Source of the DNA: Chloroflexota bacterium
GTDB lineage: Bacteria > Chloroflexota > Dehalococcoidia > Tepidiformales > Tepidiformaceae
Reading direction: 5' to 3'
DNA length: 64,000 nucleotides
Assembly (NCBI GenBank): GCA_016234445.1
Contig: JACRBT010000017.1
Coordinates: 62,001 to 126,000 of the forward strand
Position 1 is the first letter of the stretch. Each line of letters starts with the position of its first letter. The notes under the pieces were generated by a model. The model had not been told where the DNA came from. It did not search any database and was given only the letters and a program-made list of their open reading frames with translations. The position numbers and the translations under genes were made by a program. Shown piece by piece: positions 26,008-41,276 of this stretch.

Positions 26008-27549
26008 TTAGCTCGCGGGCACGGCTGGTGGCGGCTGGCCGAGGACACGCTTCGGGGGGTAGACGCGGAAGGTGGCCAGGTGGTTCCGGACGCCGGCCTG
26101 GAAGGCCTCGATGTAGGCGAGCTTCCGGGTCATGTAGTTGTGCGTCTCTTTCGGGTCCAGGTAGAGGTTGTAGAGCCGCGCGTAGGTGAAGTGCTGGGTG
26201 ACCCCCGTGAAGCCGCCCGGCCCGGCCGCGTCGCCGGGGTCGTCGCTGGTGGCGTTGAGGAGGAACTTGTATTCACCGGTGCGGACGCCGGAGAACGTGT
26301 CGACCAGCCAGTAGTAGTGGTACTTGCGGTTCGAAAGGCCGCCCGGCGCCAGGAGGAACGACGACTGGTCGACGCCGTCGATGTAGCGGTCGGTTGGGAT
26401 GCTCGCGGACGCCCCGGCGAGGCCCAGGAAGGTCGGGAGGATGTCGTTGAAGTCGAAGAGGCCGTCGGACTGGCGGTCTGCTTCGATCACCCCGGGCCAG
26501 GCGAAGATGCCGGGCACGCGGACGCCGCCCTCCCAGGTGGACCCCTTCGCGCAGCGGAAGGGGGTGTAGGCGGCGTCGGGCCAGGTCTCCATGTGGGGGC
26601 CGTTGTCGCTGGAGATGAAGATCAGCGTGTCCTCCAGCTGGTCCGTCTCCCGCAGGGTATCGACGAGACGGCGGACGACGTCGTCGAGTTCGACCAGCGT
26701 GTCCTTATAGGGATGCTTCGCCGGCGAGGCGCCAAGGAACTCTTCCTTGGGGTAGTTGTCGAAGTGGGCGCCGCGGGTGCCGTGGTAGAGGAGCCAGGGC
26801 TTGGCTTCGCCCGCCATGCGCTGGATGAACTGCTGCGAATAGGTGCACCACTTGTCGTCGAGCAGGGAGAGGACGGGGATGGTCACCTCCTCGACGTTCT
26901 CGGGTTCGCCGCCGCGGGTGGCGTGGACGAAGCACTTGTTGAAGGGCATGTTCTTGATCCACTCCGTCCGGGCCTCGGAATAGACCATCTCGGGGAAGAA
27001 GTGGGGGTCGCGCCACTCCGAGTACATGTCGCTCACGCTGAGGAAGCCGTAGAAGTCGTCGAAGCCGACGTTCTGGGGTTGCGAGGCGAGGTTCTCGCCG
27101 ACGTGCCACTTGCCCACGGCCTGGGTCACGTAGCCGGCGTTGGAGAGGAGTTCGGCGATGGTGATCTCGCCCTGGAGGCCGCCGGGTTCGCCGTACATCG
27201 GCGGGCGATGGAGCCCGTGGCGGTTGGGTACGCGGCCCGTGAGGAGCGTCGCCCGCGAAGGCGAGCACGACGGCTCCGAGTAGCAGGAGGTCAGGAGCAA
27301 GCCCTGGCGGGCCAGGCGGTCGATGTTGGGCGTGGGTGCGCCCACGGCGACGCCGCCGCCGTAGCAGCCGAAGTCGCCCCAGCCGACGTCGTCCATGAGC
27401 ACGACGAGGAAGTTCGGGCGCTTGCCCCGCCGGGCCGTGTATTCGGCGATCCTGGCGCGGGCAGCCTCGCGGTCGGCTTCGTGGACGAAGGCGGGTTCCA
27501 GGTTTGGGGTGGTCCGGACGGTGGGGGAGGCGATGGGGTCGAACGGCAT
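26008..27549 (-). CDS. sulfatase (arylsulfatase type I)
   Basis: This 513-residue alkaline-phosphatase-fold sulfatase has the Ca ligands in FLVVLMDDVGWGDFG, the formylglycine motif CSPSRATLLTGR, VGKWHVGE and SSDNGPH. The catalytic Cys must be converted to formylglycine, and no formylglycine-generating enzyme gene is in the window. There is no signal peptide at the chosen ATG (27549), so it appears cytoplasmic; the longer reading adds a Pro/Arg-rich tail. It is divergent from the amidohydrolase gene. The substrate is unknown. Confidence 0.85.
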   Translation of the reverse strand: MPFDPIASPTVRTTPNLEPAFVHEADREAARARIAEYTARRGKRPNFLVVLMDDVGWGDFGCYGGGVAVGAPTPNIDRLARQGLLLTSCYSEPSCSPSRATLLTGRVPNRHGLHRPPMYGEPGGLQGEITIAELLSNAGYVTQAVGKWHVGENLASQPQNVGFDDFYGFLSVSDMYSEWRDPHFFPEMVYSEARTEWIKNMPFNKCFVHATRGGEPENVEEVTIPVLSLLDDKWCTYSQQFIQRMAGEAKPWLLYHGTRGAHFDNYPKEEFLGASPAKHPYKDTLVELDDVVRRLVDTLRETDQLEDTLIFISSDNGPHMETWPDAAYTPFRCAKGSTWEGGVRVPGIFAWPGVIEADRQSDGLFDFNDILPTFLGLAGASASIPTDRYIDGVDQSSFLLAPGGLSNRKYHYYWLVDTFSGVRTGEYKFLLNATSDDPGDAAGPGGFTGVTQHFTYARLYNLYLDPKETHNYMTRKLAYIEAFQAGVRNHLATFRVYPPKRVLGQPPPAVPAS

Positions 27550-27692
27550 GGTCGGTACTCCGTGCGGGTGGGGGGGGATCCTGGGGGGCGGCACCCTGCG
27601 GCGCACTCTACCGAACCCGGGAACTGCGGCACAGGCCACGAGCGAGGGCGGCTCGCCGCCCGTATCCTATCGGCGCAGCACCGGGAGGCAGC

Positions 27693-29360
27693 ATGGCCGA
27701 GACGACGATCTTCCTCGCCCGCAAAGTCATCACCATGGACCCGAACGTGCCGGAGGCGAACGCGATCGCCGTCCGCGAGGGGCGGATCCTGTCCGCCGGG
27801 CCCTTCGACCGTGTCCTCGCGGCCGTCGGTGGCGCCGGGGTCGACCGCCAGTTCGCCGACAAGGTCATCCTCCCGGGGTTCGTCGAAGCCCACGCGCACA
27901 TCCTCGAAGGCATCTTCTGGCAGTTCCCCTACGCCGGCTTCATCGACCGCCGCCGGCCCGACGGCACCACCGCCGAGGGCGCGACGACGAACGAGGCCAT
28001 CGTCACCCGCCTCCGCCGCGCCTCCGCCGCGATGCCCGACCCGAACCAGCCGCTCTTCGCCTGGGGCTACGACCCGCTCTTCCTTTCGGACGAAGAGCTG
28101 ACGGCGCCCATTCTCGACACGGTCTCCGCGACCCGCCCGATCTATGTGATGCACGCCAGCGGCCACGTCGCCGCCGTCAACAGCGCGCTCCTCGAGGCGG
28201 CGGAGATCACTGCTTCCACCAACGTCGAGGGCGTGGTGAAGGGCGCGGACGGCAACCCCACCGGGGTCCTCCAGGAGACGAAGGCGATGAACCTGGGGCT
28301 CCGGGTCGCGGGGAGCCCCTTCGCCGGCGACCTTCGCCAGCCGTTGCTCAATCTCGGGCGGGCGGCGCACGTCGCCGGCGTCACCACCGTGACCGACCTT
28401 GGCACCCTGCCGCTTGCGAACCCGGCCTCGCTCCAGACCATCACCGAAGTGACTTCGAGCGATGACTTCCCGGCGCGGCTCGCCGCCGCCCACGGGCTGC
28501 TCTTCGGTAGTCACAGCCCGGAGCGCGTCGCCGAGGAGTGCCTGGCGCTGGGGGCGAAGAGCACCGACAAGCTCCGCATGGGCTTTGCCAAGATCATCAC
28601 GGACGGTTCGATCCAGGGGTTCACGGCGCGGCTCCGCTGGCCCTGTTACCACAACGGCGCCGCCAACGGCATCTGGAACGTCGACCCGGAAGCCCTCCGC
28701 GCCTGGGTGGCCGAACTCCACCGCAACCGGATCCAGGTGCACATCCACACCAACGGGGACGAAGCGACCGATGCCGCCCTCGACGCCCTCGAAGCCGCGA
28801 GCCGGGAGGCGCCCTGGGACGACCACCGCCTCGTCCTCGAACACAACCAGATGGCGAGCGAGGCCCAGTTCCGGCGGATGAAGGCGCTCGGGGCCTGCAC
28901 GAACCTCTTCGCCAACCACGTTTACTACTGGGGCGACATCCACCGGGCGGTGACCATCGGCCCCGACCGCGCGAACCGGATGGACGCCGCCGCCTCGGCC
29001 CTCCGGCTGGGGGTGCCGTTCTCCCTCCACTCCGATGCGAACGTGACGCCGATCGGCCCGCTCTTCGCCGCCTGGTGTGCGGTCAACCGGCGGACCATGT
29101 CCAACCGGGTGCTCGGGCCGGAGCAGTGCATCCCGGTGATGGACGCGCTCCGGGCGGTCACGCTTGGCGCGGCCTACCTCCTCCGGATGGACGACGAGAT
29201 CGGGAGCATCGAAACCGGCAAGCGCGCCGACCTGACCGTCCTGGGCGAAGACCCCCTCGCCGTGGACCCCCTCGAACTGAAGGACGTGCCCGTGGTGGCG
29301 ACGGTGCTCGGCGGCGTCCCCCAGCCCGTCCCCGCACCGAAGGCGGCGGCGGTGTTCTAG
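27693..29360 (+). CDS. metal-dependent amidohydrolase (YtcJ type)
   Basis: This 555-residue amidohydrolase has the TIM-barrel metal ligands GFVEAHAHILEG (HxH), VHIHTNGDEATDAALD, LEHNQM and LHSDANVTP, and the beta-sandwich ends (ITMDPNVPEANAIAVREGRIL; IETGKRADLTVLGEDP), as in YtcJ enzymes that hydrolyse N-acyl or related amides. The ATG at 27693 has GGGAGG upstream. No signal peptide is present. The substrate is unknown. Confidence 0.85.
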   Translation: MAETTIFLARKVITMDPNVPEANAIAVREGRILSAGPFDRVLAAVGGAGVDRQFADKVILPGFVEAHAHILEGIFWQFPYAGFIDRRRPDGTTAEGATTNEAIVTRLRRASAAMPDPNQPLFAWGYDPLFLSDEELTAPILDTVSATRPIYVMHASGHVAAVNSALLEAAEITASTNVEGVVKGADGNPTGVLQETKAMNLGLRVAGSPFAGDLRQPLLNLGRAAHVAGVTTVTDLGTLPLANPASLQTITEVTSSDDFPARLAAAHGLLFGSHSPERVAEECLALGAKSTDKLRMGFAKIITDGSIQGFTARLRWPCYHNGAANGIWNVDPEALRAWVAELHRNRIQVHIHTNGDEATDAALDALEAASREAPWDDHRLVLEHNQMASEAQFRRMKALGACTNLFANHVYYWGDIHRAVTIGPDRANRMDAAASALRLGVPFSLHSDANVTPIGPLFAAWCAVNRRTMSNRVLGPEQCIPVMDALRAVTLGAAYLLRMDDEIGSIETGKRADLTVLGEDPLAVDPLELKDVPVVATVLGGVPQPVPAPKAAAVF

Positions 29361-29405: not shown

Positions 29406-30236
29406 CTACTCCCCGGCGGGGACGAGCCCTTCCTTCGCGAGGAGGTCGGCGAGCTGGCGGGCGATGCCGCCTTCGGGCGCGGCCTCGAGTGTCTTGCCGC
29501 CGCGGCCGCCCATGCCCCCGGACATCAGCTGGCGGAGGCGCTCCGATGGTTTCGCCGCCGCCGACGGCTTGAGCAGCTGGCGGGTCAGCGGCCGGGCCGG
29601 GCCATAGCCTACGAGTTCGAAGCGCTCGCCCGGTGCGACCTCGTGGGCGACGGCGCGGGCGGCGACGGTCTCCCGGCGGGCGGCGAGGCGCGTGGCCAGC
29701 CGCGGGTAGAACAGCGGCGCCGGCATCCGGGCGGCGACGAGGACAACTGGGGTCGGCGCCCGGTAGACCTGGCGGACGCCCCCACCCGCCCGGACCTGCG
29801 CGAGGAGGTGCCCCTCCCCGGCTTCGATTGCGGTCACATCCTGGAGCAACGGCCACCCGAGGACCTCGGCCAGCGCGGCCGCCAACACCCCGGAGCCGTG
29901 GTCGCTCGCGGCGCTCCCGGCGAAGACGACGCCGGCGTCCGCGGGAATCGCTTCCGCGAGTACCCGCGCTGTCGCGGCGATCCCTGCCTCGGCGAGGTCG
30001 TCCCACCAGGCCCGGGTCAGCCCGTCCACACCCATCGCGCGTGCTTCGCGGAGGGCCACGTCCCATTCGGGCGGGCCTACCGCCACCCCGTGGACCTGGC
30101 CGCCCGCCGCTCGTCGCAAGGAAAGCGCGAGGCTCAGCGCCACCACCGACGGTTCGTCCAGGCGGCAGGTGTCGCCCCAGACGCCCTGCGCCAGTTCGGG
30201 GTCGGCCACCGCGCGGAGCAAGACGACGCTCTTCAT
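29406..30236 (-). CDS. etfB: electron transfer flavoprotein subunit beta
   Basis: This 276-residue protein has the EtfB pattern: N-terminal strand VVLLRAVADPE, then ALSLALSLRRAAGGQVHGVAVGPPEWDVALREARAMGVDGL, the AMP-binding region FAGSAASDHGSGVLAAALAEVLGWP, and a long C-terminal arm. With EtfA it shuttles electrons from flavoprotein dehydrogenases. It overlaps etfA by four bases (ATGA), so the two are translationally coupled. Confidence 0.85.
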   Translation of the reverse strand: MKSVVLLRAVADPELAQGVWGDTCRLDEPSVVALSLALSLRRAAGGQVHGVAVGPPEWDVALREARAMGVDGLTRAWWDDLAEAGIAATARVLAEAIPADAGVVFAGSAASDHGSGVLAAALAEVLGWPLLQDVTAIEAGEGHLLAQVRAGGGVRQVYRAPTPVVLVAARMPAPLFYPRLATRLAARRETVAARAVAHEVAPGERFELVGYGPARPLTRQLLKPSAAAKPSERLRQLMSGGMGGRGGKTLEAAPEGGIARQLADLLAKEGLVPAGE

Positions 30237-31213
30237 CCTGCCGCTCCCGCCACCGCCGCGCGGCGGTCGCTGCTACTCCGCCGCCCCCGGAGGTCGGCGA
30301 TGAGGGCGGGCAGGATCTCGTGGACGTCGCCCACCAGCGAGACATTCGCGATCTTGAAGATCGGCGCCCGTGCGTCCGAGTTGATCGCGACGATGAAGGA
30401 GGCGCCGCGCATCCCGAGGGTGTGGTGGATGGCGCCGCTGATCCCGCAGGCGATGTAGAGCGCGGGGGTGACGGTCCTGCCGGTCAGGCCGACCTGGCGG
30501 GCCGAGGGAATCCAGCCGTTGTCGACGGCGACCCGGCTCGCCCCGACGGTGCCGCCAAGCAGCCCCGCCAGTTCGGCGAGCAAGTCGAACCCTTCGCGGC
30601 TGCCGAGACCCCGCCCCCCGGCGACGACGACGTCGGCCTCGGCGAGGTCCATCTCCCAGGGCGAGAGGCGGCTTTCCTGGACGAGCGCAAAGGGGGACGC
30701 GGATGCCACCGGGGCCAGTCCGGTGAACTCGGGGAGCGCGGGGGTGCCGGTCGCGTCACCCGCGGCCTCGGCGTTCACGAGGGCGATCGTCGTCGGCGCG
30801 CGGAGGGCCAACGTCGCGGTCCGCGTCCCGGCCAGGGCCGGGCGCGATGCCTGGAGCACGCCGTCGCGTTCGCGCAGGCCGAGGACGGAGGTGGCGATCG
30901 GGAACCCGGTTCGCACCGCCAGCCTGCCCGCCAGTTCGCGCCCCAGCGGCGTGTCCCCGATGGCGATGAGGTTGTAGGCGCCCGCCTCCGCCAGCGACGT
31001 GACCGTGCCCGCCAGCGCTACGGCATCCGCGGCGGGCACGTGCCAGGCCTGTGCCCAGCGGCCGGTCAGCGCCACGGCCGGGCCAACGACGAGGACGTCG
31101 CCTTCGCCGCGCGATTCGGTGATGGTCCGTTGGGCTACCCCGAGGGCGGCCGCTGAACGCCGTTCGACGCCCCCGGGCCCGGTCTCCACCACCGCGAGGA
31201 CGCGCCGCCCCAC
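30233..31213 (-). CDS. etfA: electron transfer flavoprotein subunit alpha
   Basis: This 326-residue protein has the diagnostic EtfA C-terminal FAD domain: VVAGGRGLGSREGFDLLAEL, VAVDNGWIPSARQVGLTGRT, ALYIACGISGAIHHTLGMRG and FIVAINSDARAPIFKIANVS. It starts three bases after the stop of the flavin oxidoreductase gene, so the order oxidoreductase-etfA-etfB is a tight operon and the oxidoreductase is the likely electron donor. Confidence 0.9.
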   Translation of the reverse strand: MGRRVLAVVETGPGGVERRSAAALGVAQRTITESRGEGDVLVVGPAVALTGRWAQAWHVPAADAVALAGTVTSLAEAGAYNLIAIGDTPLGRELAGRLAVRTGFPIATSVLGLRERDGVLQASRPALAGTRTATLALRAPTTIALVNAEAAGDATGTPALPEFTGLAPVASASPFALVQESRLSPWEMDLAEADVVVAGGRGLGSREGFDLLAELAGLLGGTVGASRVAVDNGWIPSARQVGLTGRTVTPALYIACGISGAIHHTLGMRGASFIVAINSDARAPIFKIANVSLVGDVHEILPALIADLRGRRSSSDRRAAVAGAAG

Positions 31214-31216
31214 GCC

Positions 31217-33193
31217 CTAACCCCGGCGCATGGGGACAGCCACAAGGTCAGGCCGGGCGGGCGGCCCATCGAGCCCGCGGGCCGCTTCATGGCCGTCGAA
31301 GGTCGCCATCTCCAGCCGCCGCGGGCCCGTGCAGTCGCCGATCGCGCGAACGCGGGAGTGGTGTTCCGAAAGCTGGTAGAAGAGGGCGTTCGCGGGGACG
31401 ATGTTGCAGGCGAGGACGACGGTGTCGACGGGGACTTCCGTCTCTTCCGAGGTGTAGAAGTCGTAGAGCGTCACCGACCCGGGCCGGATCTCGCGTGCCC
31501 AGGTGGTCGGCCGGATGTCGACGCCGAGCGCGTGGACCCGGCGCAGAGTGGCCGTCCGGGTGATCGGCTCGGCGTGCTTGCCGGCTTCAAGTTCGCGCGT
31601 CGCGAGGATGACTTCCTTGCCCTGCGCCGCCAGCAGTTCGGCGACGCCCATGCCCTGGACGTGGTGTTCGTCGTCGAGGATGACGACCCGGTTGCCGGGT
31701 TCGACGACGCCGTTGAGGACGTCCCAGGCCTGGACCACGTTTGCGCCGTCGACGCCCTTGATGTGGTCGGGGACGCGGGGGGTGCCGCCGGTGGCGACGA
31801 AGATGTCGTCGGGCTTGAGGTCGAGGACATCCCGGGCGGTGGCGCGGGTGTTGAGGCGGACGTCGACGCCGAGTCGTTTCATCTCGACGGTGTAGTAACG
31901 CCCGACCTCGGCGAAGTCGGTGCGGCCGGGGGCCCTGGCGGCGATGTTGGTCTGCCCGCCGAGCGCGCCCGACGCCTCGAAGAGGGTGACGTTGTGTCCC
32001 GCGCTGGCGGCGACGCGCGCGGCCTCGCACCCGGCCGGGCCCCCGCCGACGATGACCAGGCGCTTCGGGTCGGAGGTCTTCGGAATGGTGCCCCAGTGCT
32101 CTTCCCGGCCGATGGCGGGGTTGATGGCGCAGGTGATCGACGCCAGCTTCTCGACGTGGCCCCAGCAGCCTTCGTTGCAGCCAAGGCAGTGGCGGATCTG
32201 GTCGAGGCGGCCTTCCCGGGCCTTGTTCGGGAGTTCCGGGTCGCAGATGTTCGCCCGGGTCATCCCGACCATGTCGGCCTGGCGGTTCTCGAGGATCTGC
32301 TCGGCCATCACGGGGTCGTTGATCCGGCCGATGCAGACGACGGGGATGTCCAGCACTTCCTTGGCGATCGCCGAGAGGTAAACGAACGAGCCGCCGGGGT
32401 AGTACATCGGGGCGATGATCGTGTCTTTCGACCGGTAGGTGCCGACGCTGACGCTCATGTAGTCGAGCTGGCCGCCGGCCGTGAGGATGGGCACCATGCG
32501 CTCAAAGTCTTCGCTGGTGTAGCCGTCCTCGGTCATCTCGTCGCCGGAGATGCGCATGCCGACCGTCCAGTCGCGGCCCACTTCGGCGCGGACGGACTCG
32601 ATGATCTGGGCGACGAAGTTCATCCTGCGTTCGAAGTCGCCGCCGTACTCGTCGTCGCGCATGTTCGAAAGCGGCGAAAGGAACTGGGTGATGAGGTAGC
32701 CGTGGGCGCCGTGGATCTCGGCGCCGTCGAGCCCGGCCTCGCGGAGCACGGAAGCCCCGCGCGCGTAGCCGGCGATCACTTCCTGGACCTCGCCGACGGT
32801 CATCTCGTGGGGGACGGTCCAGGTGTCGGGCGTGGGGATCGGCGACGGCGCCCACGGCTGGCCGAAGAGGTTGCTCCCCTGGGCGCCGGGGTGCCAGAGC
32901 TGGCCGACGAACTTGGCGCCGTGTTCGTGGATCGCCTCGGTCGCGGCGCGGAACTTCGCCACCGCCGCCGGCTGGGCGAAGGTGTCGCCGATCGAGCGGT
33001 GGATGCCGTGGACGTGGGAGCCGATGAGGCCGATGCCGCCCTTCGACTTCGCCACCCAGTAGGCGATTTCGCGCGACCCGGGGAGGCCGTCGGGGTCGGT
33101 GAAGAGGGTGTGGTGCGGCGTGCTCATGATCCGGTTGCGGACCGTGAAGCTGCCGATCTTGAGCGGGCTGAAGAGAAGCTTGAACTCGGTCAC
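31217..33193 (-). CDS. Fe-S flavin oxidoreductase, dienoyl-CoA reductase/trimethylamine dehydrogenase-like
   Basis: This 658-residue protein has an N-terminal old-yellow-enzyme TIM barrel (FMN; LFSPLKIGSFTVRNRIMSTP, GAEIHGAHGYLITQFLSP), a [4Fe-4S] site C-x2-C-x3-C-x11-C (HCLGCNEGCWG...SITC), and a C-terminal nucleotide-binding region (LVIVGGGPAGCEAARVAA; VVILDDEHHVQGMGVAELL). The order fits 2,4-dienoyl-CoA reductase and trimethylamine/dimethylamine dehydrogenases. Partnership with etfAB points to the dehydrogenase type, which passes electrons to ETF. The GTG at 33193 has a GGGGG site and begins the barrel. The substrate is unknown. Confidence 0.85.
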   Translation of the reverse strand: MTEFKLLFSPLKIGSFTVRNRIMSTPHHTLFTDPDGLPGSREIAYWVAKSKGGIGLIGSHVHGIHRSIGDTFAQPAAVAKFRAATEAIHEHGAKFVGQLWHPGAQGSNLFGQPWAPSPIPTPDTWTVPHEMTVGEVQEVIAGYARGASVLREAGLDGAEIHGAHGYLITQFLSPLSNMRDDEYGGDFERRMNFVAQIIESVRAEVGRDWTVGMRISGDEMTEDGYTSEDFERMVPILTAGGQLDYMSVSVGTYRSKDTIIAPMYYPGGSFVYLSAIAKEVLDIPVVCIGRINDPVMAEQILENRQADMVGMTRANICDPELPNKAREGRLDQIRHCLGCNEGCWGHVEKLASITCAINPAIGREEHWGTIPKTSDPKRLVIVGGGPAGCEAARVAASAGHNVTLFEASGALGGQTNIAARAPGRTDFAEVGRYYTVEMKRLGVDVRLNTRATARDVLDLKPDDIFVATGGTPRVPDHIKGVDGANVVQAWDVLNGVVEPGNRVVILDDEHHVQGMGVAELLAAQGKEVILATRELEAGKHAEPITRTATLRRVHALGVDIRPTTWAREIRPGSVTLYDFYTSEETEVPVDTVVLACNIVPANALFYQLSEHHSRVRAIGDCTGPRRLEMATFDGHEAARGLDGPPARPDLVAVPMRRG

Positions 33194-33432
33194 GGCCGAC
33201 CCCCGGATTGGACTATCCGTGCTATCGAAGGCAGCGGACGTTTGTGCAGGTGTGCCAGAGCCGCCGGGGCGCGGCAATGACGCCGATCATATTTGGGGGT
33301 GACGCCCGCGCGGCCTCCAACCCAGCTGCGTGGGCACGCGGGTAGTGACCAGCGAAGTTGCAAACTGTTTACGTTCAGGTGCTTGACTGCGGCTGCGCGT
33401 TAGTCCGAAATGCGAAAGAGACCCACGCGGAA

Positions 33433-34085: not shown

Positions 34086-36902
34086 ATGACTACTACACCA
34101 TCGGCCGCGCCTGTCCCTAAGAGCCTGGAGAAATACCGCGACAAGCTGGAGTGGGATGCCGTTTACTGGGGCACCCATTGCGTCGACTGCTACCCGGGGG
34201 ACTGCCCCGTCCGGGTCTACGTGAAGGACGGCAAGGTCGTCCGCGAGGAGCAGGCGGGGACGATCGCCATGGTCGAAGCGGGTGTGCCCGACTTCAACCC
34301 CATGGGCTGCCAGAAGGGCGCCTCCTGGAGCCAGTCGCTCTATGGGCCGGACCGCGTCCAGTACCCCCTGCGGCGGGCGGGCGAACGCGGCGAAGGCAAG
34401 TGGGAACGGATCAGCTGGGACACGGCCCTGACCGAGCTTGCCGAGACGATGGTGGATGCGATCGAGACGCACGGTTCCCAGTCAATCGTCCAGGAGGGCA
34501 CGCCGGAGGGGGGCGGGAGCATGGGCATGCGCCGCTTCCTGTCGACGGTGGGCGGTCACTACCTCGACCTCCAGGGGTCGTTCAACGACTTCTCGATCGG
34601 CCTCTACGAGACCTTCGGGAAGTTCAGCCCCACCTCGTCGGCCGACGACTGGTTCAAGTCGGAGCTGATCCTCTTCTGGCACATGAACCCGGTCTACACG
34701 CGGATCTCGCTCTACCACTTCATCGCCGAGGCCCGCTACAACGGCGCCGAGATCGTCAACATCTCCCCGGACATCAACGCCTCCCACACCCACGCCGACT
34801 ACCAGGTGCCGATCAACGGCGCCTCGGACCCGGCCTTCGGGCTCGCGCTCGTCCAGGTGATGCTCGAAGAGGGCATCGCCGACTGGAAGTTCCTCAAGGA
34901 ACAGACCGACTTCGGCTTCCTCGTCCGGACCGACACCCGGCGCTACCTCCGCCAGGTCGACGTCGAAGGCAAGGGGCGCGAGGACCAGATGTACCAGTGG
35001 GTCCCGGGCCGCGGCCTGAAGCTCGCCGACCGGGGGAACATGTTCCTCAAGGGCGTCGAGATCGCCCTCGAAGGGGTCTTCGACGTGAAGCTGGCCGACG
35101 GCTCCACGGTCCAGGTCACGCCCGTCTACGCGCTCCTGAAGGACAAGCTGGACCGCGAATACACGCCGGAGAAGCAGCAGGCCATCACCAGCGTCCACCC
35201 GGACGTGATCCGGATGCTCGCCCGCAAGATCGCGACCAAGCGGACGAACATCATGCTTGGCTACAACGCCTGCAAGTTCTACCACGGCGACCTGATCGAA
35301 CGGGTCATGTGCCTGGTCCTCGCCGCGAGCGGCAACTGGGGCAAGCACGGCACCGGCATTCGCTGCTGGGCGGCGGCGATGAACGACGGGGCCGGCATCG
35401 CCATGGCCAAGCCCGGCCCCGGCGCCGCGAACAGCGAGATCATCCTGTCCGCCCGCGATGCCGCCGTCGCCGCCTTCAAGAAGCAGGACCCGACGATGAC
35501 GACGGAGATCGCCGTCCGGGAGCTTTCGAAGATGATCGCGGGCTCCGAGCGCGGCGGGATCAACAAGGTCGACCAGACGCCGGTGGCCGGCGGGACCTCG
35601 TCGCCCCCCGCCTTCTGGTGGTACTGGCACGGCGGATACAAGGACCGCTGGAACAAGCGCGAATGGGGCGACGAGTCGCTCCCGCGCGGCTTCGACGCCT
35701 ACTTCCAGGAAGCGATCGACAAGGGCTGGTGGAAGGGCCTCAACCGGCCCGGCCCGGATGACCCGCCCCAGGTCTTCATCGAATGCGGCGGGAACACGCT
35801 CCGGCGGACGCGCGGCGGCAAGGGCGCCCTGCTCCGCACCCTCTGGCCGAAGCTCAAGGCGATCGTCGTCATCGACTTCCGGATGAGCCAGACGGCGCTG
35901 TACGCCGACTACTTCCTCCCGGCGGCGCAGCACTACGAGAAGCTGGCCTTCGGGATGCCGACACCCCACGTCATGAACCTCACCCTGGGCGACCGGGCCG
36001 CGGCGCCGGCTGGCGAAGCCAAGGACGAATGGGAGATCTTCGACCTCCTGGTGAAGAAGATCGCCGAGGTGGCCGAGCAACGCGGGCTCGTCCAGTACAC
36101 CGGCGGCAACGGCGTCGAGCGCTTCTACGCGGGCCTCTCCCAGGCCTATTCGATGCACAACTACTTCGACAACGAAGACTCCCGCTTCGACGAAATCATC
36201 CGCGACTCCGCCCTCGCCGGGACGCTGCCGATGGGCACGAACCTCCGCACCATGCGGGAGACGGGCCACGTCCGCTTCATCGACTGGGGCCTCGCGCCGA
36301 TGGGGCTCTCGCAGGCGTCGCCGCTCGAGCCGAACAAGACCCACGTCCCCTTCCGGGACCACACCGAACGCGGCGACCCGTTCCCGACCTATGCCCGCCG
36401 CGCCCAGTTCTACATCGACCACCCCTGGTTCCTGGAAGCTGGCGAAGAGCTGCCGGTCCACAAGCCCAACCCGAACATGGGCGGCGACTACCCGATCGGC
36501 CTGACCTCGGGCCACAACCGCTGGTCGATCCACACCATGAACCAGGCGAACGAGGTCATCCTCGGGACGCACCGCGGCGAGCCGTTCGCCGAGGTGAACG
36601 TGGAGGATGCGGCGGCCCGCGGGATCAAGGACGACGACCTCATGCGCGTCTTCAACGACGTCAGCGAGTTCAAGGTCCGCGCCAAGGTTTCGCCGAGCGT
36701 GAAGCCGGGCCAGATCGTCTCCTACAACGGCTGGGCGGGGTTCCAGTACCGGGACTGGTCCGGCGCCAACGAGATCGAACCGGGGATGGTCAAGTGGATC
36801 GGCTTTGCCGGCGGCTATGGCCACCTTCAGCACCTCAGCGCCGAGTGGCAGCCCGTGCCGGTCGACCGCTGGGTGCGGTGCGACTACGAGAAGGTAAAAT
36901 AG
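34086..36902 (+). CDS. molybdopterin oxidoreductase, DMSO-reductase family catalytic subunit
   Basis: This 938-residue protein belongs to the Mo/W-bisPGD family. The N-terminal [4Fe-4S] region is H31-C32-x2-C35-x4-C40-x34-C75 (THCVDCYPGDC ... NPMGCQKG), which differs from the usual Cx2-3Cx3C spacing. Segments such as RISWDTALTELAETM, GNWGKHGTGI and GLTSGHNRWSIHTMNQANEVI fit the cofactor-binding domains and the C-terminal cap, most like the type II (nitrate reductase, ethylbenzene dehydrogenase-like) group. No twin-arginine leader is present. No Fe-S beta or haem/gamma subunit gene follows. The substrate is unknown. Confidence 0.85.
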   Translation: MTTTPSAAPVPKSLEKYRDKLEWDAVYWGTHCVDCYPGDCPVRVYVKDGKVVREEQAGTIAMVEAGVPDFNPMGCQKGASWSQSLYGPDRVQYPLRRAGERGEGKWERISWDTALTELAETMVDAIETHGSQSIVQEGTPEGGGSMGMRRFLSTVGGHYLDLQGSFNDFSIGLYETFGKFSPTSSADDWFKSELILFWHMNPVYTRISLYHFIAEARYNGAEIVNISPDINASHTHADYQVPINGASDPAFGLALVQVMLEEGIADWKFLKEQTDFGFLVRTDTRRYLRQVDVEGKGREDQMYQWVPGRGLKLADRGNMFLKGVEIALEGVFDVKLADGSTVQVTPVYALLKDKLDREYTPEKQQAITSVHPDVIRMLARKIATKRTNIMLGYNACKFYHGDLIERVMCLVLAASGNWGKHGTGIRCWAAAMNDGAGIAMAKPGPGAANSEIILSARDAAVAAFKKQDPTMTTEIAVRELSKMIAGSERGGINKVDQTPVAGGTSSPPAFWWYWHGGYKDRWNKREWGDESLPRGFDAYFQEAIDKGWWKGLNRPGPDDPPQVFIECGGNTLRRTRGGKGALLRTLWPKLKAIVVIDFRMSQTALYADYFLPAAQHYEKLAFGMPTPHVMNLTLGDRAAAPAGEAKDEWEIFDLLVKKIAEVAEQRGLVQYTGGNGVERFYAGLSQAYSMHNYFDNEDSRFDEIIRDSALAGTLPMGTNLRTMRETGHVRFIDWGLAPMGLSQASPLEPNKTHVPFRDHTERGDPFPTYARRAQFYIDHPWFLEAGEELPVHKPNPNMGGDYPIGLTSGHNRWSIHTMNQANEVILGTHRGEPFAEVNVEDAAARGIKDDDLMRVFNDVSEFKVRAKVSPSVKPGQIVSYNGWAGFQYRDWSGANEIEPGMVKWIGFAGGYGHLQHLSAEWQPVPVDRWVRCDYEKVK

Positions 36903-36955
36903 CCGGGCGGCAGGTTGGGCCGTCCGGCCTCGAAACCTTCGAAAGGGGGAGTCCG

Positions 36956-37471
36956 ATGACGCTGAGAAAACGGTCCCGCGCGTTCCTGCTGGTCATGGCC
37001 TTCACGGGCATCGTGGGCACTGTGCTCGCGATCTCGGCCGCCTGTGGCGGTGACGACGACGACAGCGACGGTGGGGACGGCGGCGCCACAGCCACCGCGA
37101 CCCAGCCGCAGACCGGCCCGGCAACTATCACGCTCTCCAGTTCGAGCCCGATCACGGGGCAGAAGGACCGCATCCTCCTCGTCTACGCGGCCATCGCTGG
37201 AAGCGGCCCGGTGGGCCAGGCCTGCGTGACCATCACTTCGGACAACTTCACGGTCCCGGCCACGGTGATGCTGGAAGTCCCCGCGGGGCAGCAGGCGCCG
37301 TGCACGGGTTCGCCGAAGCAGGCCGTCTTCGCGAAGGGCACCTACACGCTCACGGCCGGCGTGTACGTGGGCGGTCAGCAGACGCCCGGGAAGCAGTCGA
37401 CCCAGACCGCGGAAGTTGCGGGCACGGCGCCGGTGCAGGTCAAGCTCGACGGGGCGGCGCTTTCGAAGTAG
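36956..37471 (+). CDS. putative lipoprotein
   Basis: This 171-residue protein has a lipoprotein signal: Arg/Lys-rich start MTLRKRSRAF, hydrophobic core LLVMAFTGIVGTVLAI and lipobox ISAAC (Cys30), followed by an Asp/Gly-rich and Thr-rich linker (GGDDDDSDGGDGGATATATQ). The rest looks like an Ig-like beta-sandwich (ATITLSSSSPITGQ, VKLDGAALSK) with two cysteines. The ATG at 36956 follows AAAGGGGGA. It lies 53 bases after the molybdopterin gene; a functional link is possible but unproven. Confidence 0.75.
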   Translation: MTLRKRSRAFLLVMAFTGIVGTVLAISAACGGDDDDSDGGDGGATATATQPQTGPATITLSSSSPITGQKDRILLVYAAIAGSGPVGQACVTITSDNFTVPATVMLEVPAGQQAPCTGSPKQAVFAKGTYTLTAGVYVGGQQTPGKQSTQTAEVAGTAPVQVKLDGAALSK

Positions 37472-37499
37472 GGGTCCGCCGGGCTGGGAGGTGGTTGCG

Positions 37500-38009
37500 A
37501 TGACCATGTCCGCCGGGGAAGGCGCACGGGCGTCTCCTCGCCATAGCCAGGGCTTCTGGATCACGAACAGCGTGGCGAATCCACCGCTGCGGCTGCTCCT
37601 CCGGAGCCCGCTCGGCCGCTGGATGGGCAAGAGCCTGGCGATCATCCAGGTCACGGGGCGCAAGTCGGGCCGGAGCTACTCGCTCGTCGTCCAGTACGTC
37701 CGCGAGGGCGACACCGCCTGGGTGCTCCCGGCGCACTGGGAACGCAAGACGTGGTGGCGGAACCTGCGCGGCGGGGCCGACATGGCCATCCGGCTCGCCG
37801 GCCGCGACCACCGGGCCCGGGGCACGGCGCTCCTCGGGGGCGAGAATCCCGCCGCTGTGGCCGAAGGTCTGGCCGCCTACCTCTCGGGGTCGCCCGGCGT
37901 CCGCAAGAGCCTCGGACTTCAGCCATCCGCCACCACAGCCGCCGACGCGCCGGAGATCCGGGAGCTCAGCGGCCGCGCGGTCATCGTCCGCGTCGACCTC
38001 GCCCGCTGA
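37500..38009 (+). CDS. deazaflavin (F420)-dependent nitroreductase-family protein
   Basis: This 169-residue split-barrel protein resembles the DDN/DUF385 family, which uses F420 or related deazaflavins. The signature is AIIQVTGRKSGRSYSLVVQY, then WVLPAHWERKTWWRNLRGGADM. The ATG at 37500 is preceded by GGGAGGTGG. There is no membrane segment. The family reduces varied quinone- or nitro-like substrates; the substrate here is not known. It also hints that this organism makes F420. Confidence 0.8.
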   Translation: MTMSAGEGARASPRHSQGFWITNSVANPPLRLLLRSPLGRWMGKSLAIIQVTGRKSGRSYSLVVQYVREGDTAWVLPAHWERKTWWRNLRGGADMAIRLAGRDHRARGTALLGGENPAAVAEGLAAYLSGSPGVRKSLGLQPSATTAADAPEIRELSGRAVIVRVDLAR

Positions 38010-38017
38010 GCGGCGTC

Positions 38018-38042
38018 CCCGCCCGGCCATCCGGCCGGCGGG
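38018..38042. terminator. GC-rich hairpin after the deazaflavin reductase
   Basis: CCCGCCCGGCC pairs with GGCCGGCGGG with one bulged base around a four-base loop, nine bases after the stop codon. There is no clear U-tract. Confidence 0.45.
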
Positions 38043-38105
38043 AAGGGGCCGCCCGGCCCTAGCAATCCCCTCGCGCCGGGAGCAGGATGGACGAGGGTTG
38101 TCATT

Positions 38106-39386
38106 ATGGTCACGTTCCAGGATCGCGATGACGCCGGTCGCCGGCTCGGCGAATTGCTCAAGCAGCGCGGGCTCAAACGGCCGCTGGTGCTGGGGATCCC
38201 CCGCGGCGGGGTGCCCGTCGCCGCCCAGGTCGCACGCGCGGTCGAGGGCGAACTCGGCGTCGTGGTCGCCCGCAAGGTTGGGGCGCCGTACCAGCCGGAG
38301 CTCGCGATCGGCGCCGTGACCGCCGACGGGGTCGCCTGGATCAACGAGCCGCTCGCCGCCGACACGGGCGCGGGGAAGGACTACCTCGACCGCGAGATCG
38401 CGGGCCAGGCGGCGGAAGCGAGGCGCCGCGAAGCCGTCTTCGATGGCCATCGCCGTGGTGCCGTGTCCGGCCGGCCGGTCATCATCGTCGACGACGGCAT
38501 CGCCACCGGGGCCACCGCCCTCGCGGCCGCGCGTTCGATGCGCAAGGCGGGCGCGAAGCCGCTTATCGTTGCCGTGCCGGTTGGCCCGCCCCACACCCTC
38601 GACCTCCTGAAGCAAGAGGCGGACGAGGTGATCTGCCTCCACGAAGAGCCCGACTTCTGGGCCATCGGCCAGTTCTACGTCGACTTCCACCCCATGGAAG
38701 ACCGCGAGGTCCTGGACGTGCTGGCAGCCTTCCCGGCCGCCGCCCCCGACGGCACCGTGGAAGCCTTCATCCGCCGCGACGGGGTCGAATTGGCGGCCCG
38801 GCTGCGGCTGCCCGGGGGCCGCGCGCCGGTGGTGGTGTTCGTCCACGGACTTGGCAGTTCGAAGGACTCCCCCCGGAACGTCGTCATCGCCGAACGGCTT
38901 GTGGACGCGGGCATCGCCGCCCTGCTCTTCGACCTCAGCGGGCACGGCGAATCGACCGCCGGCCGCCACGAGGGGATAGAGGCCTACGTCGACGACCTTG
39001 TTGCCGCCGTCGCCTGGGTGAAGGAGCAGCCCGGCATCGACGCCGAGCACCTGGCGATCGCCGGGTCGAGCCTCGGCGCGGTCGTCGCCCTCCAGGCCGT
39101 GCAGTCGGGCCGGGTGAAGCCGGCCGCGCTCGTGCTCCGCGCGCCGCCCGCCGACCCGGAGGAGTTCCGGGGGCTCACGGTTCCGGCGCTGCTGCTCGTC
39201 GGCTCGGATGATCCCTTGCTCGAACAGGCCTGCGGGGCTGCCGGGGTGTCGCCATCGGTCCGGCTCCAGGTGGCGCCGGGCGCCAGCCACCTCTTCGAAG
39301 AGCCGGGGACGCTCGAACTGGCGACCGACGCCACCGTCTCCTGGCTGCGCGGCCAACTGGCGGCCCCCGCCGCGGCCCGGGCCTAA
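38106..39386 (+). CDS. phosphoribosyltransferase-alpha/beta hydrolase fusion
   Basis: This 426-residue protein has two domains. Residues 1-215 are a phosphoribosyltransferase with the PRPP loop VIIVDDGIATGATA (125-138) and PRGGVPVA near residue 32. Residues 222-426 are an alpha/beta hydrolase with oxyanion region VVFVHGLGSSKDS, nucleophile S322 (GSSLG), acid D368 or D369 (VGSDDP) and H395 (GASHLF). The reaction and substrate are unknown; phosphate-ester or nucleotide-linked chemistry is a guess. Archease and RtcB genes follow at once, so a role in RNA-end or nucleotide salvage is worth considering. Confidence 0.85.
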   Translation: MVTFQDRDDAGRRLGELLKQRGLKRPLVLGIPRGGVPVAAQVARAVEGELGVVVARKVGAPYQPELAIGAVTADGVAWINEPLAADTGAGKDYLDREIAGQAAEARRREAVFDGHRRGAVSGRPVIIVDDGIATGATALAAARSMRKAGAKPLIVAVPVGPPHTLDLLKQEADEVICLHEEPDFWAIGQFYVDFHPMEDREVLDVLAAFPAAAPDGTVEAFIRRDGVELAARLRLPGGRAPVVVFVHGLGSSKDSPRNVVIAERLVDAGIAALLFDLSGHGESTAGRHEGIEAYVDDLVAAVAWVKEQPGIDAEHLAIAGSSLGAVVALQAVQSGRVKPAALVLRAPPADPEEFRGLTVPALLLVGSDDPLLEQACGAAGVSPSVRLQVAPGASHLFEEPGTLELATDATVSWLRGQLAAPAAARA

Positions 39387-39390
39387 CGCC

Positions 39391-39840
39391 GTGGCCGGGG
39401 ACGGACCGCCAACGGCTGGAGAGGCCGAATCGCCGGGTGTCGACTACTTCGAGCACGCCGCCGACATCGGAGTGATCGGCCGCGGAGCCACCGTCGAGGA
39501 GGCTTTCGTGCACGCCGCCGAGGCGACCTTCGCGGTCATGGCCGACCTCGCCGCGATCCGCCCGCTGAGCCGCTTCCGGGTCCGCTTCGAAGAGGACGAC
39601 GCGGAGTTGGCGCTTGCCCGCTGGCTCAACCGTCTCCTGGCCGAAGCCCGGAGCCGCCGTCTCGCCCTCGGCAAGTTTGCCGTCCGCCGCAAGGGCAACC
39701 GGTGGGAGGGAGAAGCCTGGGGGGAGCCATGGCACCCGGGGCTCGACCGCGGCGTCGAGGTCAAGGGCGCGACCCTCACCATGCTTTCTGTGCGCGCGAA
39801 CGGCGGCCGCTGGGACGCGCGCTGTGTCGTGGACGTGTAG
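39391..39840 (+). CDS. archease
   Basis: This 149-residue protein is the activator of the RtcB RNA ligase. The conserved opening is YFEHAADIGVIGRG with the Asp used for metal binding, followed by VEEAFVHAAEATFAVM, LALARWLNRLLAEA and the C-terminal EVKGATLTMLSV. The GTG at 39391 gives a family-length protein; a longer reading would overlap the fusion gene. Its stop lies two bases before the rtcB start, a typical operon pair. Confidence 0.85.
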   Translation: MAGDGPPTAGEAESPGVDYFEHAADIGVIGRGATVEEAFVHAAEATFAVMADLAAIRPLSRFRVRFEEDDAELALARWLNRLLAEARSRRLALGKFAVRRKGNRWEGEAWGEPWHPGLDRGVEVKGATLTMLSVRANGGRWDARCVVDV

Positions 39841-39842
39841 CG

Positions 39843-41276
39843 ATGGACATTTCGAAGCTTCGCGAGACCGCACCTTTCGCCTGGACGCTTGTTCCCTCCG
39901 GGGGCGAACCCCGGGCCCCGGTCGTCTTCTACGGCAGCCGTGAACTGGTCGAGGCGATGGACGACAAGGTGGTCGAACAGGCGTCGAACGTGGCCCGCCT
40001 GCCGGGGATCGTGGGCGCTTCGATGGCCATGCCCGACGCGCACTGGGGCTACGGTTTCCCGATCGGCGGCGTCGCTGCGTTCGACCCGGACAAGGGAGGG
40101 ATCGTCTCGGCCGGCGGTGTCGGCTTCGACATCTCCTGCGGGATTCGCTGCCTGCGGACGAACCTTGACGGCGAGAGCCTGCCGCCCGTCGCCGCGGCGC
40201 TTGCCGACGGCCTCTTCGCGGCGATCCCGGCGGGCGTGGGCGAAGAAGGGGAGCTGCGCCTCTCCCCGGGCGAAATCGACGACATGCTCGTGGGTGGCGC
40301 CCGCTGGGCGGTTGGCCGCGGCTATTCCAGCCCAGCCGACCTCGAATTCGTGGAAGAGCAGGGGGCGATGCCCGGCGCCGCGCCCGGGGCCGTCTCGGAC
40401 CTGGCGAAGAAGCGCCAGCGCGGCGAAGTGGGGACGCTCGGGTCCGGCAACCACTACCTGGAGGTGCAGGTGGTGGAGCGCATCTTCGACGCCGCGGCGG
40501 CGGAGGCCTTCGGACTCGCCGTGGGGCAGGTCGTCGTCTGCATTCACTGCGGCTCGCGCGGGCTCGGGCACCAGATCGGCACGGACTACCTGGTCTCGAT
40601 GGCGAAGGCGGCAGAGCGTCTCGGCACTCATCTCCCCGACCGCGAACTCGCCTGCGCGCCCATCCGTTCAGACGAGGGCCAGCAGTACCTTGGGGCGATG
40701 CGCGCCGGGATCAACTGCGCGCTCGCCAACCGCCAGGTGCTGACCCACCTCACGCGCGAGGCGTTCGCGACGGTCCTCCCGGGGGCTTCGCTGGAGACCC
40801 TGTTCGACGTCTCCCACAACACCTGCAAGGCCGAACGCCATCGGGTCGACGGCCGGGTCCGCGAGCTCTTCGTCCACCGCAAGGGGGCGACCCGCGCCTT
40901 CGGCCCCGGCCACCCCGAGTTGCCTGACCGCTACCGCGAGGTTGGCCAGCCGGTGATCATCGGCGGGAGCATGGGGACCGCCTCCTACGTCCTTTGCGGG
41001 ACCGCCGAGAGCGAGGCGCGGTCGTACTCCTCGGCGTCGCACGGCGCCGGCCGGGCGATGAGCCGCCACGAGGCGCTTCGCCGCTGGCAGGGCCGGGCCC
41101 TCGTGGACCAGCTTCGGGGCGAGGGCATCTTCATCCGGACGAAGTCGATGCGGGGTGTCGCCGAAGAGGCGCCCGGCGCCTACAAGGACGTCCACGTCGT
41201 CGCCGAGTCGACCGAGCAGGCGGGGCTGGCGAAGCGGGTGGCGTTGCTGAAGCCACGTATCTGCGTGAAGGGCTGA
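39843..41276 (+). CDS. rtcB: RNA-splicing ligase RtcB
   Basis: This 477-residue Mn/GTP-dependent RNA ligase joins 2',3'-cyclic-phosphate and 5'-OH ends in tRNA splicing or RNA repair. The family motifs are PDAHWGYGFPIGG, GGVGFDISCGIRCLR (metal Cys), GSGNHYLEVQ, VCIHCGSRGLGHQ, DVSHNTCK and the histidine that receives GMP in SASHGAGRAMSR. The length is normal and all visible motifs are intact. It is coupled to archease. Confidence 0.95.
   Translation: MDISKLRETAPFAWTLVPSGGEPRAPVVFYGSRELVEAMDDKVVEQASNVARLPGIVGASMAMPDAHWGYGFPIGGVAAFDPDKGGIVSAGGVGFDISCGIRCLRTNLDGESLPPVAAALADGLFAAIPAGVGEEGELRLSPGEIDDMLVGGARWAVGRGYSSPADLEFVEEQGAMPGAAPGAVSDLAKKRQRGEVGTLGSGNHYLEVQVVERIFDAAAAEAFGLAVGQVVVCIHCGSRGLGHQIGTDYLVSMAKAAERLGTHLPDRELACAPIRSDEGQQYLGAMRAGINCALANRQVLTHLTREAFATVLPGASLETLFDVSHNTCKAERHRVDGRVRELFVHRKGATRAFGPGHPELPDRYREVGQPVIIGGSMGTASYVLCGTAESEARSYSSASHGAGRAMSRHEALRRWQGRALVDQLRGEGIFIRTKSMRGVAEEAPGAYKDVHVVAESTEQAGLAKRVALLKPRICVKG

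Follow-up and report, generated by a model that had tools for sequence, protein, structure and literature searches.

A molybdoenzyme alpha subunit, probably of hydroxylase type and without a recognizable Tat leader, in a Chloroflexota genome with probable partner subunit genes on another contig

We examined a 64,000-nucleotide stretch of a Chloroflexota genome (the window). It contains a gene for a molybdopterin enzyme with no electron-carrying subunit beside it. The locus raises the question of what this enzyme does and where its electrons go. A first-pass annotation had described it as an orphan with an unusual iron-sulfur cluster motif. The gene and the residues discussed below are as follows.

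34086..36902, + strand: catalytic alpha subunit, subfamily II of the DMSO reductase family, probably hydroxylase type (EbdA/S25DH-like); 938 aa, without a Tat leader
34176..34310, + strand: FS0 [4Fe-4S] ligand region H31, C35, C40, C75; from the alignment, with coordinates taken from residue numbers 31 to 75
34587..34589, + strand: D168, aligned with the Mo ligand D223 of EbdA; from the alignment, with the role of D223 from a passage of PMC8840923
35274..35276, + strand: K397, aligned with EbdA K450; from the alignment

Family and fold of the alpha subunit

The reading frame begins with ATG. The top PDB sequence match of the product was EbdA (2ivf_A; E = 1.4e-201, 675 bits). PcrA was second (E = 7.2e-125, 421 bits), and NarG came after it. 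Foldseek gave the same order of relatives for the predicted model, with TM scores of 0.86/0.89 to 2ivf_A. The AlphaFold model was built from 32 alignment rows, was of medium confidence (mean pLDDT 73.7), and was used for the fold search only. Its pLDDT was below 50 at residues 34 to 38 and 59 to 79, so it is silent on FS0 geometry. The best NCBIfam match was TIGR03479, with 810.6 bits against a cut-off of 984.75, covering residues 17 to 933 of 938. None of the seven alphas of the window's genome (G000) passes this cut-off, including those adjacent to gamma and beta genes. The EbdA model NF042978 gave 736.1 bits, below its cut-off of 2000. Both low scores count against the hydroxylase-type explanation that we prefer. 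The first-pass call of a molybdopterin enzyme is right. Judged by its sequence, it is a catalytic subunit of DMSO reductase subfamily II, nearest in the PDB to EbdA. Compared with four relatives, it has a dN of 0.112 to 0.179, a dS of 0.68 to 0.97, and a dN/dS of about 0.14 to 0.19. It is a constrained gene under purifying selection.

FS0 ligands and active-site residues

The alignment contained 63 rows, 50 of which form the clade of interest. EbdA, ClrA, a Haloferax enzyme, nine EbdA-like Chloroflexota rows (L017 from G000 among them), and L039 were set aside from the clade. L039 is missing its N terminus and was left out of the tree and the FS0 counts. Frames shorter than 700 aa (including L046), 13 more distant rows (L055 to L067), the repeats L051 to L054, and the duplicates L026 and L116 were excluded before alignment and tree building.

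The motif of the window alpha is H31-C32-V-D-C35-Y-P-G-D-C40-x34-C75, which confirms the H-C-x2-C-x4-C-x34-C reported earlier, with four residues between the second and third ligands. By alignment column, H31, C35, C40, and C75 are kept in all 50 clade rows. Position 32 is Cys in 48 rows and Ala in 2 (L106 and L107, from genomes G034 and G108). Four residues separate C35 from C40 in 41 of the 50 rows, and three do so in the other 9, so the motif is ordinary within the clade and not unusual as had been thought. In the 12 non-clade rows, the corresponding spacing is three (7 rows) or five (5 rows), and 11 rows have His at position 31, while one, L103, has Cys there. Alignments gave a spacing of three for PcrA and NarG and five for EbdA. 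The short frame L046 has an N terminus with the identical FS0 motif; it contains RR without a leader.

A passage of PMC8840923 gives one His and three Cys ligating FS0 as a trait of subfamily II. It describes the His ligand as apparently conserved across the subfamily, the cholesterol C25 hydroxylase and the p-cymene enzyme included. The window alpha and all 50 clade rows have one His and three Cys. Because H31 is kept throughout the clade and that passage describes the His as conserved, the alignment identifies H31 as the FS0 ligand. C32, the other candidate of the first-pass annotation, is on the same basis a conserved non-ligand neighbor, dispensable because it is Ala in two rows. The cluster motif alone carries no significance.

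Two other FS0 variants were seen. In a second group of alphas, the FS0 His and the first Cys stand one residue farther apart (H-x4-C-x3-C, as in HTRVNCISAC); the group comprises five alignment rows: L017:11605-14304 (+ strand), L101, L108, L113, and L115. In the EbdA-like L103 (G059), the FS0 His is replaced by Cys (CLGNCSYQRAC), contrary to the conservation stated for subfamily II.

The Asp ligand of Mo is likewise given as a subfamily II trait in a passage of PMC8840923, and it is D223 in EbdA. K397 is probably the Lys that hydrogen bonds this Asp. The S25DH section of a review (PMC6153880) places Lys450 beside Asp211; its numbering scheme is unclear, so the match of positions is only probable. 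Residues 134 to 149 of the window alpha (P0001), which align with EbdA 186 to 204, contain no His. The His that is proposed to act in OH rebound at the EbdA active site is, as we take it, His192. Residue 192 of EbdA falls in an alignment gap, so the column for this His is unsure.

N terminus and probable location

The window alpha has no Tat leader, as was noted earlier. Between H31 and the preceding in-frame stop lie 46 residues, with neither RR nor a hydrophobic stretch among them. The scan used patterns and inspection by eye of the longest possible N terminus, in place of a Tat predictor. The strict Tat pattern was found in none of the 50 clade rows. RR occurs in 20 of them, and the looser RR-x-[FLMIVAW] occurs in 7 (L018:5564, L032:13116, L034:7350, L036:3958, L041:10654, L099, and L107), without a leader-like stretch behind it as judged by eye. 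Most of these loose matches precede a more plausible start codon. L107 (RRWVMVQVRGAMGLWAE) is the hardest to judge; another pattern also flagged it and its repeat, L052. The same scan detects the Tat leaders of ClrA (L048, Ideonella) and the Haloferax enzyme (L047). A more distant molybdoenzyme of G000, L008 (TIGR03479, 250.9 bits), has NRRSFLKLGG near its N terminus. No leader was found in the first 60 residues of the L018 gamma, beta, and delta or the L017 gamma and beta.

Because the leader is missing, the clade is probably cytoplasmic. Passages of PMC8840923, PMC7411048, and PMC10100899 describe the characterized water-using alkyl hydroxylases of this family as periplasmic, with cytochrome c as the known or likely acceptor. 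This clade apparently is not periplasmic, which is a point against our preferred explanation. According to a passage of PMC7411048, the Sterolibacterium substrate is believed to move back and forth between the periplasm and the cytoplasm. If the clade is leaderless, its hydroxylation chemistry would be cytoplasmic, with ATP, CoA, and electron transfer flavoprotein (ETF) at hand, in both Chloroflexota and Proteobacteria assemblies.

Probable partner subunits in the genome

Partner genes were searched for by tblastn with the G000 subunits of contig C20 as queries (1e-8, 30% of query length). Neither the window nor the adjoining parts of contig C5 that were covered (10 and 14 kb beyond its ends) yielded a gamma, beta, or delta gene. 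There was no convincing gamma gene or remnant at positions 36800 to 40000, downstream of the alpha (best E = 0.5). The flanks searched around L020 (contig C1) and L021 (contig C6) also contained none of the three.

G000 contains 3.54 Mb in 20 contigs and is 97.07% complete. It encodes seven full-length alphas (at least 776 bits) and two betas (at least 445 bits); beyond these, the best beta-like match scores 262.8 bits. L018, on contig C20, encodes in order of transcription a Crp/Fnr-type regulator, two alphas, gamma, beta, a delta chaperone, and another alpha. The alpha directly before gamma-beta-delta is 71% identical to the window alpha. In the second set, L017, gamma, beta, and a delta-like stretch accompany alpha-a, which falls outside the clade. 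The earlier statement that no Fe-S or heme subunit gene is within reach holds for the surroundings of the gene and fails for the genome, where such genes are encoded on C20.

G077, from the same family as G000, encodes 11 alphas (at least 808 bits) and two betas (at least 433 bits). At least two of these alphas (L101 and L108) are outside the clade. Alpha genes thus outnumber beta genes by 7:2 in G000 and 11:2 in G077, a trait of the steroid dehydrogenase group. The excess is not a general rule: in G034 and G108, four alphas each stand against three full-length betas and additional partial ones. The 7:2 and 11:2 ratios suggest a substrate-swapping design, which would be useful for biocatalysis. 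Most likely, the electron-carrying partners of the window alpha are encoded in trans in the same genome, and the complex would assemble in trans.

Relatives and distribution

A scan of named genomes recovered 22 loci with alphas 66 to 84% identical to the window alpha. They were from assemblies of Chloroflexota (Dehalococcoidia and Thermoflexaceae), Gammaproteobacteria, Alphaproteobacteria, and one unplaced bacterium. An alpha of 59% identity or higher was present at 25 loci (L018, L021, L025 to L046, and the window). L050 (G077) has coordinates matching those of L026 and is identical to it over the last 400 residues; it is the same gene and is not counted separately. Gamma lies directly downstream of the alpha in 13 of the 25 (L018, L025, L028, L030, L031, L032, L035, L036, L038, L039, L041, L043, and L045), including the nearest homologue, L025 (84%). 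L044 has beta directly after alpha and no gamma match. Four loci end in or just after alpha (L033, L034, L037, and L046). The other seven (L021, L026, L027, L029, L040, L042, and the window) have no partner gene by tblastn, and these absences count against our preferred explanation. All five assemblies with a window-type alpha (the window's or one 81 to 84% identical) contain gamma-beta-delta, in L018, L030, L031, L032, and L035; a contig end cuts the L031 delta. Close relatives have encoded partners and the same cluster spacing, the finding that the first-pass annotation had named as refuting its view, and gamma-beta-delta is also encoded on C20; the gene is probably not an orphan.

L038:159-5855 contains tandem alphas, 67% and 65% identical to the window alpha, ahead of one gamma-beta-delta set. 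In the L030:15940-18510 region, downstream of the alpha-b gene, is a gene for a 485-aa protein without a Pfam or PDB match (PDB E > 0.6). After it come two small genes that resemble those of membrane proteins, and one of these gives a marginal CopD match (32.3 bits versus 32.1). Relatives of the 485-aa gene occur in L017/L018, L032, L044, and L045, and those of the small genes occur in L017, L032, and L036. Together these proteins are a possible membrane electron acceptor.

The tree had 62 rows and was built by a quick method with SH-aLRT support and no bootstrap. The window alpha groups with L025 (97), then with L027 and L050 (96), within a 28-row group (100). The enzyme is rare in the phylum, with matches at E = 1e-140 or better in 4 of 400 genomes. 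In the class, 114 of 148 genomes had some match at 0.001, and only six had one of at least 500 bits (G000, G077, G034, G108, G024, and G059). Two of the nine family f1 genomes in that search carry the enzyme (G000 and G077). Matches in plasmid records were all below 60% identity. None of the titles and abstract openings listed from the open-licence literature describes this enzyme type for Chloroflexota or Dehalococcoidia.

Neighboring flavoenzyme and ETF genes

Three genes lie upstream of the window alpha on the opposite strand, starting about 800 bases from it.

31217..33277, - strand: BaiCD/2,4-dienoyl-CoA reductase-like Fe-S flavoenzyme; divergent from the window alpha, co-directional in relatives
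30233..31213, - strand: ETF alpha subunit
29406..30236, - strand: ETF beta subunit

The flavoenzyme contains an OYE barrel and a pyridine-nucleotide domain, with the Cys pattern C-x2-C-x3-C-x11-C. Its nearest PDB entries are 6qkg (named NCR) and 2,4-dienoyl-CoA reductase. It scored 406 bits with the BaiCD model and 584.6 of 793.15 bits with mycofact_OYE_2, its best NCBIfam match; both are below cut-off. A mycofactocin link was rejected. The best MftC match in G000 had 36.3 of 265 bits, and similarly weak matches occur in all 14 control genomes. Flavoenzyme and ETF most likely serve a further step of the pathway, oxidizing or reducing substrates of the class that alpha uses.

The same genes adjoin alpha in L026, L027, and L046, where flavoenzyme, ETF alpha, ETF beta, and alpha follow in this order on one strand. 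These three loci and the window have no gamma or beta in the flanks examined (L046 is cut inside alpha), and an enzyme without a Tat leader could meet a cytoplasmic ETF. The window alpha might then pass its electrons to ETF, with or without the flavoenzyme, and not to beta and gamma. We consider this reading, the main rival to shared partners, unlikely. All four assemblies concerned have gamma-beta-delta elsewhere. Gamma is directly downstream of the alpha in L025, the nearest homologue, which has no flavoenzyme or ETF gene within 3.2 kb upstream, and also in L028 (75%). A heme potential of +256 mV is too high for the usual ETF. This is the potential given in a passage of PMC8840923 for the heme at which electrons leave EbDH.

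Two other parts of the window were annotated. Positions 39702 to 41276 (+ strand) encode an RtcB-family protein that partly matches the intein-containing RtcB model (596 of 1150 bits). Positions 26008 to 29360 contain a sulfatase (- strand) and an amidohydrolase-3 family protein (+ strand). The two frames as listed share 136 bases, which means that one or both starts are probably misplaced.

Proposed function

The window alpha is likely the catalytic subunit of a hydroxylase of the ethylbenzene/steroid-side-chain dehydrogenase type that uses water, is located in the cytoplasm, and shares the partners encoded on C20. Its family and fold, FS0 ligands, Mo-ligating Asp, lack of a recognizable Tat leader, purifying selection, and the gamma-beta-delta genes in trans are directly supported. 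The apo-alpha would receive Mo-bis-MGD with the help of the delta chaperone. It would then assemble with the shared beta (Fe-S) and gamma (heme b) from C20. The enzyme would hydroxylate an unactivated or allylic C-H position with oxygen from water, and two electrons would pass from FS0 through the beta clusters and heme b to an acceptor. Several alphas of differing substrate may share one beta-gamma-delta set.

The substrate may be a sterol- or isoprenoid-like side chain, which is a guess. No sterol pathway could be shown in G000, and a test of CoA-transferases at C20 spoke against one; both points weigh against our preferred explanation. IpdAB-type steroid ring enzymes were rejected there. 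Both CoA-transferase-like genes tested match glutaconate CoA-transferase (1poi) best, so no steroid marker is shown. For the first of them, 6con and 6co6, whose chains we take to be IpdA, rank below 1poi.

The window alpha could instead work reductively, on an oxyanion, N-oxide, or similar compound, as do PcrA, ClrA, and SerA. This is quite unlikely. The subfamily is common to both types and PcrA is the second-best PDB match, but EbdA scores 675 bits to its 421. In the tree, EbdA and the 50-row clade group together (99), apart from ClrA, although EbdA sits on a long branch that leaves its exact position unsure. Acyl-CoA dehydrogenase, thiolase-like, and CoA-transferase genes in the C20 region also speak against a reductase, but weakly, since they flank alpha-a, which is outside the clade. 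That the window alpha is a decaying remnant of an alpha-gamma-beta operon, as its missing counterpart of the L025 gamma might suggest, is very improbable given its low dN/dS, intact ligands, and conserved flavoenzyme-ETF neighborhood.

A broader extension of the hydroxylase reading is a cytoplasmic, modular system of C-H hydroxylation, in which one or two beta-gamma-delta sets would serve up to 11 Tat-less alphas and the window-type outlet would have switched from heme b to a dedicated ETF and BaiCD-like flavoenzyme. We regard this as improbable. The Tat-less clade and the conserved BaiCD-like flavoenzyme-ETF neighborhood are unusual. These and the alpha excess are worth a second look; the rest of the interpretation is mostly ordinary.

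Similarity to characterized enzymes

PcrA and ClrA share the subfamily II fold and ligands with the window alpha. PcrA is 29% identical to it in the structural match. Both have three residues between the second and third ligands, and ClrA of Ideonella has a Tat leader, whereas the window alpha has none.

EbdA (2ivf) shares with it the fold, the FS0 His and three Cys, the Mo-ligating Asp (D223), and K450. They are 37% identical in the structural match. They differ in ligand spacing (five in EbdA, four in the window alpha) and in the His-free region aligned with EbdA 186 to 204, and the window alpha scores below the cut-off of the EbdA model.

The likeness to the dehydrogenases of Sterolibacterium denitrificans is judged from published features. 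S25DH and S26DH carry Tat sequences according to a passage of PMC7411048, whereas none is recognizable in the window clade. A passage of PMC6153880 reports that S25DH lacks the active-site His that has been proposed to act in the OH rebound of EbDH, and the aligned region of the window alpha has none either. S25DH1 to S25DH4 and S26DH1 and S26DH2 are likewise subfamily II alphas, whose many paralogues share a smaller number of beta-gamma genes and a chaperone, as described in a passage of PMC6016249. According to the same paper, Sterolibacterium alpha1, alpha2, and alpha3 were each produced in active form with one beta3-gamma3 pair.
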